Source: Flavisolibacter ginsengisoli DSM 18119 | GTDB taxonomy: Bacteria; Bacteroidota; Bacteroidia; Chitinophagales; Chitinophagaceae | NCBI RefSeq assembly: GCF_900129295.1 | Contig: NZ_FQUU01000013.1 | Span: forward strand, 62,001 to 126,000 | Length of the DNA stretch: 64,000 nt | Reading direction: 5' to 3' | Shown here: positions 17,793 to 57,690 of the stretch, piece by piece | Position numbering within the stretch: position 1 is the stretch's first letter | Layout: each line of letters opens with the position of its first letter | Program-made: the position numbers and the translations under genes | Notes under the pieces: generated by a model | Databases searched by the model: none | The model's input: the letters and a program-made list of their open reading frames with translations, nothing else | What the model was told of the DNA's origin: nothing

Positions 17793-18276
17793 GCTAGATT
17801 CTTTTGCAGTAAGTTGTTGTTACAATATTAGCTACGAGTTTATTAAAAAAAATACCCATAAGTAGGTACTTTTTTGTTCAGAGTTTGCAAATTTTAATGA
17901 ATACTGAATACCCATGGCAATAACCTATTGACGTTCAATGAGTATTTCTATTATTAATGATTAGTCAAAGATTTTTCAATCTATTATAAGACCCATTGAT
18001 TACTTAGATAAATTGAGTTATTCCCCAAAGACCGGCAAGCAGCTGCCTTACCTGCTGTATGGTTCTTATTCTATCCTTCCAGCTATCTCCAGCCTACCTC
18101 CTCCCTATCTAGGCTATAGTAACGGTATAGATACTCCGTGCCCGCACGGAGTATCTATACCGTAGATAGGGAGAAGGTAGGGAGAAGCCATGCCGTAGCT
18201 ACATCGCAGGTTGCAGATTTTTTACCATCCAGCCAGGATGGAAATGGGATAAAAATTGGTCCTGCTGATGATTGGG
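17793..18276. other. 484-nt gene-free stretch upstream of the zinc-ribbon gene
   Basis: The first ~270 nt are AT-rich and show no ORF, RNA gene or repeat that I can support; they must hold the promoter of the minus-strand zinc-ribbon gene. The rest is dominated by the palindromic 11-bp-unit array at 18067-18198. The stretch ends at the stop codon of the ABC permease. Confidence 0.6.
18067..18198. repeat. Palindromic array of degenerate 11-bp units (copy 1)
   Basis: About twelve consecutive 11-mers run in strict phase, for example CCAGCCTACCT, CCTCCCTATCT, AGGCTATAGTA, ACGGTATAGAT, then on the other arm CTATACCGTAG, ATAGGGAGAAG, GTAGGGAGAAG, CCATGCCGTAG. The array folds on itself: a perfect 19-bp inner inverted repeat (18123-18141 with 18144-18162, only 2 nt between) and an outer 17-bp repeat with one mismatch (18094-18110 with 18164-18180). 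It lies between two minus-strand genes. A second element with the same architecture but another sequence lies at 57420-57507. It is not a CRISPR. Confidence 0.85.
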
Positions 18277-57206: not shown

Positions 57207-57690
57207 AAATACCCTCCGCTATTATTCCTTTCCTATACGTACTGCCTGGAATGAAAGCAGGGAGTTTAGAATAATTCATTCTCGCAAATGAATGCATTCT
57301 TTCCAATGCACCAGGTTAATTGCTTTTGTTTACGCCATTCCCTGGCTTTGGTTAATAAGGGCCATTTCTTTCAGGTACCCTTAATGCCAACTTCTTCCAT
57401 CTATATCCTATACATAAACCATGGATGTCCCGAGGATATCCCGACTCTATAAGAGTCGGCTTATCGTCGGCTTATCCTCGGGATATCCTCGGGATATCTA
57501 TGGGACATCCCTCCTTTTGGTTAGCCTTTGCATTATATGAAAAGGCTTTGACGATTGCAGGAATTGTGGTATACATGGATTTAGATCAGAATTTAAAAAA
57601 GAGTGGGTACATAGTGAGATAGGCGAGGGCATAACCGGCACTTGCCATTACATCAGCAGATCTTATATTGAAATGTTACCGGGGCTATCC
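57207..57690. other. 484-nt gene-free stretch between convergent tgt and lptG
   Basis: It holds the palindromic 11-bp array (57420-57507) in its middle. The left part (57207-57419) is unremarkable. An open frame over the array (57425-57622) simply translates the repeat. No clear T-tract terminator for either gene is visible, so the array itself may be the transcript end. Confidence 0.5.
57420..57507. repeat. Palindromic array of degenerate 11-bp units (copy 2)
   Basis: Eight consecutive in-phase 11-mers: CATGGATGTCC, CGAGGATATCC, CGACTCTATAA, GAGTCGGCTTA, TCGTCGGCTTA, TCCTCGGGATA (twice, identical), TCTATGGGACA. The left arm and the outer part of the right arm are inverted copies; the right arm is longer by exactly 33 bp (three units), as if units had been added on one side. 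The centre is the stem CCGACTCT / AGAGTCGG with loop ATA (57441-57459). Copy 1 at 18067-18198 has the same layout with other bases. The element is not coding. Confidence 0.88.

Follow-up and report, generated by a model that had tools for sequence, protein, structure and literature searches.

What is a palindromic array of degenerate 11-bp units doing between ftsZ and an ABC-2 permease gene, does it stand alone, and is it read as DNA or as RNA? These questions are raised by positions 18067-18198 of a 64-kb stretch of the Flavisolibacter ginsengisoli DSM 18119 genome (64,000 nt of contig NZ_FQUU01000013.1, analyzed as a whole and called the window below). The following features were delimited, with the basis of each given in brackets.

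18067-18198, no strand: solitary 11-bp array as first noted (sequence, family matches, periodicity)
~18076-18209: phased part of the array, six units either way from the center (family profile)
18076-18121, minus strand: left outer array, units running outward on the minus strand, with an extra CTATAGCCTAG-type unit (copies, folds)
18122-18141, plus strand: left arm of the central stem, perfect over 20 bp (stem search)
18144-18163, plus strand: right arm of the same stem, units GCACGGAGTAT and CTATACCGT.. (stem search)
18164-18209, plus strand: right outer array, units running outward on the plus strand (copies read, periodicity)
57403-57508, no strand: family-2 element with an 11-bp step, unrelated in sequence to family 1 (periodicity, copies)

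Structure of the array

The central stem is perfect over 20 bp and closed by a 2-nt loop (CC); the original prediction had placed the arms correctly 2 nt apart and had given their length as 19 bp. No perfect stem elsewhere in the window was as long (loops of ≤8 nt considered), and in Markov copies of the window (n = 5) the longest comparable stem was ≤11 bp. The inverted arms found by repeat search were 67 nt long and 70% complementary. Two more perfect stems, at ~40473 (16 bp, 2-nt loop) and ~54044 (17 bp, 7-nt loop), are perhaps terminators. The window gave 0 Rfam covariance-model matches at gathering scores.

Phasing of the units at 11 bp, as originally proposed, was borne out. Self-identity of 18067-18198 at lag 11 was 0.479 against a Markov mean of 0.251 (0/5000 copies as high), and 11 was the best lag among 5-29, with a maximum attained by 0/1000 Markov copies. 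The right arm without the stem reached 0.585 at lag 11 (p 0.01 for the maximum over lags); the left arm alone was weak (0.451; p 0.02 at lag 11, p 0.29 for the maximum over lags). In the right arm, CTATACCGTAG (18155-18165) and CCATGCCGTAG (18188-18198) lie 33 bp apart, the three units that had been read there. The mirror symmetry also claimed for the element holds for the central two units; farther out no unit-by-unit mirroring was found, and both arms are 11-bp arrays running outward.

Dispersed copies in the same genome

The array belongs to a dispersed family (family 1) occupying at least 40 distinct places in the F. ginsengisoli genome (84 matches; 40/62 candidates scored; 4.68 Mb, 55 contigs), a lower bound given the number of candidates scored; five array-bearing loci of the gene family described below fall outside these 40 places. 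Family-1 sequence was matched in 0/57 relatives at E 1e-4, 17 of them congeneric. The exact core pattern was found in three stretches of a contig collection from which the genome's own records may be omitted, which by estimate is about chance for 18 fixed bases. A simple hairpin in a Chitinophagaceae MAG (L035:4387-4410, AATACTCCGTACTGGTACGGAGTATT) resembles the 1a core and may be chance.

Among 39 of the 40 copies, read unit by unit, 23 had the core GATACTCCGTGC (1a) and 16 the core GATACTGCGTGAT (1b). Copies lay in 16 tandem, 8 divergent and 7 convergent gaps, compared with 83/44/32 for background gaps, and 8 further copies overlapped ORFs of 63-85 aa that were taken as spurious; family-1 copies thus have no preference for gene ends. 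A terminator reading was rejected, as gene context gave it no support.

Information per unit fell from the center outward (18.4, 14.3, 10.8, 9.4, 7.3, 4.1 and then 1.3 bits; 78 arms), so that unit phase persists outward for about six units. Family 1 has two unit types, CTATACCGTAG-like and ATAGGGAGTAG-like. At level 3, the two arms carried opposite types in 32/39 copies (19.2 expected, p 3e-5), which gives the element a polarity hidden by the central palindrome. At level 5, equal types were in excess (opposite in 8/34, 16.9 expected, p 0.003), which speaks against full independence and shows some arm-to-arm correlation. The left-right match at level 1 (10.36 vs 9.56 in permuted copies) is confounded by the 1a and 1b subfamilies.

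Outer-arm co-variation was assessed on the premise that, if pairing were selected, units within one copy would be more alike than units of different copies. Of 12 comparisons (32 oriented copies, three offsets), 11 were null at p 0.05 and one gave p 0.027. The absence of copy-by-copy co-variation favors phased recognition units over a hairpin and, all in all, the units resemble words for recognition that are held in phase, not paired strands. In the predicted fold, one extra unit in one arm appears as an 11-nt bulge.

A gene family beside the arrays

Comparison of the neighbors of array copies revealed a multicopy gene family, named MAKQ after its N-terminal residues, encoding proteins of 200-250 aa with up to about two dozen gene copies per genome. 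By position, 16/39 copies adjoined a MAKQ gene or fragment and 23/39, including the window copy, did not. A tblastn search of the window gave no MAKQ match (best E 0.15), and the window array is therefore a solitary copy.

The F. ginsengisoli genome holds 22 MAKQ loci in two clades, of which one is a 33-aa fragment and another contains a stop; canonical MAKQ copies are also present, on contigs C53 and C34. The array core, scored as present at ≥22 of 24-26 positions, was found upstream of 22/22 clade-1 and clade-2 loci, at 162-416 bp from where the match begins, and was absent from stretches of 118-600 bp downstream of them (at most 16 positions). Core 1b was found at the 16 clade-1 loci and 1a at the 6 clade-2 loci, a correspondence that linked descent alone can explain. 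No array was present upstream of the C53 copy, the one of the two canonical copies that was compared.

Two loci (L064 and L065) with unrelated surroundings were 95.6% identical over 941 bp, a block that begins at the array's outer edge and ends shortly after the stop codon of the gene, which indicates that the two can be copied together. No target duplication was seen by eye at this pair, the one inspected.

MAKQ proteins gave nothing above cut-off against Pfam, NCBIfam, PHROGs and PADLOC, and no match to the transposase models of the first three. Structure models reached a mean pLDDT of 82.8 and 84.5, with only ~38-67 over the first 40 residues, and were composed of a beta-hairpin and helices, with a beta-rich remainder in the protein from genome G005. 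Fold searches with both models found no PDB match at E 0.001 and identified no DNA-binding domain; one model searched against viral structures gave no match at E 0.001, and the G005 model gave weak C2/beta-sandwich hits.

Arrays upstream of MAKQ in other genomes

MAKQ homologues were found in 12/34 relatives (alignment A1), with 23 matches in G015 and 12 in G031, and in 32/395 phylum genomes and 46/395 class genomes (alignment A3), F. ginsengisoli included. Phages gave no match, viral contigs none that was confirmed, and plasmids one, on Marivirga p1.

Lag 11 was significant (p 0.01) upstream of MAKQ at 22/58 loci from 41 genomes, with 0.58 expected, and downstream at 0/58. Lag 22 was significant upstream at 21/58 loci and all other lags at ≤7, lag 7 being found at 7/58 upstream and 7/58 downstream. 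The remaining 36/58 upstream regions missed p 0.01 at lag 11, and the four G031 loci tested showed no lag-11 signal upstream. Left out of this test were L109, with a truncated start, and L137, which repeats the gene of L115, whereas the C53 copy was included; the loci are not all independent (five from G015, four each from G005 and G031). In a second sample, lag 11 was found upstream at 10/17 loci and downstream at 0/18.

Array words differ between species (AGGTATACTTT, CATGCATTATC, CTACGAATGAA, GATACGGCTTT), with perfect CATGCATTATC repeats in G392. Common to many of the arrays upstream of MAKQ is ATRC on the strand of the gene. ATRC pairs on this strand numbered 93 at 11 bp and 65 at 22 bp, compared with 2-12 at each of the remaining spacings between 5 and 29. 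Sense pairs at 11 bp were present upstream at 42/74 loci (36/57 genomes), at a median of 262 bp from the start codon; control counts were 6 loci for antisense upstream and 3 and 7 loci for the two strands downstream (of 74), and a Markov control gave a mean of 2.9 loci and a maximum of 7 (100 runs). L109, L137 and L150 were omitted here, and L205 lacked usable upstream DNA. Collected units gave C-Y-A-T-R-C-N-N-T-A-T, which CTATACCGTAG of F. ginsengisoli fits except at the last base. In the second sample, 11-bp ATRC pairs were found at 14/17 loci in sense, 1 in antisense and 1 downstream; the core had been noticed in first-sample loci but was framed as a test only after the second sample had been seen, so that this sample was blind for lag 11 and not strictly so for ATRC. 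The 11-bp arrays sit ~160-450 bp upstream of MAKQ genes in F. ginsengisoli and in many other genomes of the group. Arrays inspected in other species had no central palindrome, which marks the mirror symmetry as a local variant that is not essential.

Genome G015, a congener (complete, one contig), has an array family of its own at 40 or more places (40/63 candidates scored), in which 11-mers such as TCCCTTCATGG and TTACTCCGTAT alternate; two genomes of the genus thus carry different dispersed arrays. Mean self-identity over 30 copies was 0.60 (lag 22), 0.39 (lag 11) and 0.36 (lag 8), and no central palindrome was seen in these copies. By position, 6/23 G015 MAKQ matches had such an array upstream (among the 40 places scored). 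At L195, also in G015, ~5 almost identical repeats of a 22-bp pair (CCACGCCTCTGTCCCTTCATGG) point to recent tandem growth by two units per step.

Other short-period arrays

The original prediction had named two lag-11 elements in the window and made its case depend on others in the genome. Besides the family-1 places, the second element, at 57403-57508 (lag-11 self-identity 0.567), was found to have 22 strong copies in the genome, so the proposal was not refuted on this count. These family-2 copies (GATATCCCGAG / GTCGGGATATC units) are more uniform than those of family 1. No common partner gene was found at 20 loci (ORFs ≥90 aa, flanks up to 1.5 kb), and the sole MAKQ hit among family-2 loci was at a locus also bearing a family-1 array.

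Degenerate arrays of 7, 8 and 10 bp were also found. In several genomes the stretch that separates the 11-bp array from the start of MAKQ contains a 10-bp array (GGNCAAANCG-like), ~190 bp upstream (L059:8830, L066:9867, L070:9393, L073:9302; also upstream of MAKQ in L074, L135 and L150), which may be a second site of the MAKQ module. In F. ginsengisoli, degenerate 8-bp arrays (GTTGAAAA / AACTTTTC words) were noted at L060:7390, L069:18688, L074:5409 and L077:9381, some of them in MAKQ upstream regions. At L059:9032 and L066:9667 the 11-bp array is continued without a break by one of 7 bp, made of GAAGGTA and then of TTGAACA words.

A small HTH-like neighbor

In many genomes a small HTH-like gene of an undescribed family (YPKD, IYPKDIQxITGKS...) lies beside MAKQ (e.g., L141:1052-1216, L120:1151-1327), and in many species the array is near its start. 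Among 30 HTH loci fetched, 19 had MAKQ divergently upstream, 4 had another arrangement and 7 had no MAKQ in reach; the HTH profile (A4) was built from MAKQ-adjacent loci, so that the presence of MAKQ within 1.5 kb in 23/30 is a biased figure. An array signal was found upstream of the HTH gene at 8/23 loci with MAKQ and 1/7 without, too few to separate. The HTH protein had no Pfam or NCBIfam match above cut-off, and its PHROG match, Cox-like, was weak (E 0.08).

No HTH match was found at E 0.001 in G015 or G031, despite many MAKQ matches in both. As G015 has its own array family and 23 MAKQ matches without the HTH, MAKQ is the more constant partner. F. ginsengisoli has a single HTH gene, with no array or MAKQ gene beside it in the sequence read. 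Plasmid p1 of Marivirga sp. BKB1-2 (L198) carries a divergent pair: an HTH-like protein of 65 aa, which is annotated, and a MAKQ-like frame, which is not and which ends at a stop after ~98 residues. Only a weak array was found at this locus (24/44 at lag 11 and likewise at lag 6; one ATRC pair), and a site-specific integrase is annotated nearby.

Interpretation and alternatives

From the observed phase, position, gene linkage and dispersal of the arrays, we infer binding, control and a route of copying as follows. The window element would be one of the solitary copies of a helically phased binding array that is dispersed in the genome; at its own gene, such an array would be coated by a protein of the MAKQ module, and solitary arrays would be further tracts for this protein. 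We put the probability of this reading at about 0.5. The binder may most simply be MAKQ itself, acting through its conserved N-terminal part, with one 11-bp unit bound per DNA turn on one helix face and cooperative coating of the array. The array beside a MAKQ gene would control the promoter region of that gene. Solitary arrays could be REP-like passengers that are tolerated, or could be used in organizing DNA or expression. Speaking against this reading are the 36/58 upstream regions that miss p 0.01 at lag 11, the four G031 loci without lag-11 signal, the C53 copy without an array, the arm-to-arm correlation at level 5 and, for MAKQ as the binder, the low pLDDT over its first 40 residues, the lack of a fold match that identifies a DNA-binding domain, and the position of the array at the HTH start in many species. 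A wider version is tentative, with the odds against it: in a new gene-and-DNA system of the phylum, the undescribed family would form a filament on one-unit-per-turn arrays with lineage-specific words, and these arrays would spread along the chromosome with no recognized transposase, yielding genome-wide tracts for the protein (for chromosome organization, silencing or a selfish regulator network).

Of the three natures originally suggested for the element, the protein-binding array gained most; an RNA rod and slippage growth are less favored. Protein binding is favored by a phase that persists although the outer arms are not complementary copy by copy, by the recurrence in many genomes of the 11-bp step and a common sense-strand core ahead of a single gene family, and by the lack of bias of the copies to gene 3' ends. 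It is very unlikely that the element works as RNA, its transcript hairpin serving as a terminator or stabilizer. The window copy does fold very stably on both strands (z -7.1 and -7.9; 0/200 shuffles as good), and the central stem was conserved in the family-1 copies read, but gene context follows the background (16/8/7 vs 83/44/32), 11/12 arm comparisons lack co-variation, and the palindrome is missing from the arrays inspected in other species. Least probable of all is that these are functionless tandem repeats generated by slippage, one of several short-period arrays. Degenerate 7-, 8- and 10-bp arrays do exist, the CATGCATTATC repeats of G392 are perfect, and lag 7 is enriched on both sides of MAKQ; against this, lag 11 is confined to the upstream side (22 vs 0 of 58), at a fixed spacing and on one strand, with the core in 36/57 genomes.

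A mobile element is a more serious, if unlikely, alternative, in which array plus gene would be autonomous, solitary arrays non-autonomous, and the array a mobilization site comparable to REP/RAYT. The L064/L065 block (941 bp, 95.6%) in unrelated surroundings, the 23/39 copies that are solitary and the restriction of copies to single genomes agree with mobility, but MAKQ matches no transposase family, no target duplication was seen by eye at the one pair, and the listed copies have no Y1 transposase match nearby. Five Y1_Tnp matches (4 over cut-off) were found in the genome, by position each at least 7 kb away from the listed arrays; one of them, on C23, lies at a contig edge with one side unseen. 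A RAYT partner for the arrays was therefore rejected. Rather unlikely, too, is that the array is the operator of the divergent YPKD protein, which would coat it in the manner of a recombination directionality factor (RDF) or BldC, with MAKQ merely a regulated neighbor and the F. ginsengisoli arrays relics or trans targets. Where the array is close to the HTH start, as in many species, the HTH protein would be an equally good binder; it is divergent from MAKQ at 19/30 HTH loci (in a profile biased to MAKQ-adjacent loci), and F. ginsengisoli retains one such gene. However, G015 and G031 have many MAKQ genes and no HTH match, G015 has dispersed arrays, the single F. ginsengisoli HTH gene is not beside an array or MAKQ in the sequence read, and the family matches are weak (Cox-like PHROG at E 0.08; Pfam none above cut-off).

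What had looked like a lone peculiar repeat has become a system of two parts that can be tested, the MAKQ family and a DNA array. The link to MAKQ, which the window's own sequence could not have revealed, is the central result. The one-turn step of the array is kept upstream of MAKQ in distant genomes while its sequence drifts, and the series of forms (a group-wide consensus, the palindromic form here, the alternating 22-bp form in G015) makes the co-evolution of array and protein approachable.

Comparison with known systems

No description of these arrays or of the MAKQ family was recognized in searches of the open-access (PMC) literature. Among degenerate short-period intergenic tandem arrays, the STRR of cyanobacteria are heptanucleotide repeats, as opposed to the period of 11 here; we know of no gene family linked to them. 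Insertion sequences and MITEs have terminal inverted repeats, a target-site duplication and a transposase; the inverted symmetry here is central, not terminal, no duplication was seen by eye at one pair of copies, and MAKQ matches no transposase model in Pfam, NCBIfam or PHROGs.

REP and REPIN sequences are 20-40-bp palindromes with GTAG (or CGTC) at one end and a RAYT partner and, as far as the excerpts of the two sources go, those with RAYT (REPtrons) resemble the present arrays in being intergenic, dispersed, genome-specific and palindromic, some of them beside a cognate gene (PMC3733652, PMC3116915). The array here is ~130 bp long, with GTAG recurring within its 11-bp units and not once at the end, and MAKQ is not a Y1/HUH transposase (no Y1_Tnp match). 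The original judgment that this is not a typical REP is thus upheld on tag, size and RAYT partner, as these are set out in the same excerpts. In the plasmid R1 system, ParR needs at least two 11-bp repeats of parC, and parC is, in the part of the source consulted, likewise a direct-repeat array upstream of a gene (PMC9426499). Unlike parC of ParMRC, the present arrays are chromosomal and dispersed, and their recurrent neighbors, MAKQ and the HTH protein, match neither ParM nor ParR by Pfam.

The operators of lambda Xis and P2 Cox, both RDFs, are comparable in layout. Those of Apl of phage 186 are described, in the excerpt of the source used, as direct repeats 10-11 bp apart between divergent promoters, bound cooperatively (PMC7498355). 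The arrays share with such operators direct repeats about one helix turn apart (here an 11-bp step), but they occur at dozens of chromosomal places, and their constant neighbor is an undescribed protein of 200-250 aa. RDF operators have a cognate small winged-HTH protein; here the HTH-like YPKD protein, with its Cox-like PHROG match at E 0.08, is found in many species and is absent from G015 and G031. BldC of Streptomyces binds variable numbers of direct repeats as head-to-tail multimers with one helical turn between protected tracts (PMC5859096, in part). It differs in being a small MerR-like protein with a 9-bp site, and the excerpted text describes no dispersed repeat family (PMC5859096). 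The one-unit-per-turn layout shared with Apl, other RDFs and BldC is the reason why head-to-tail coating is proposed here. If binding is confirmed, the MAKQ family would gain a function, and the arrays would be a new case of dispersed repeats partnered by something other than a recognized transposase.
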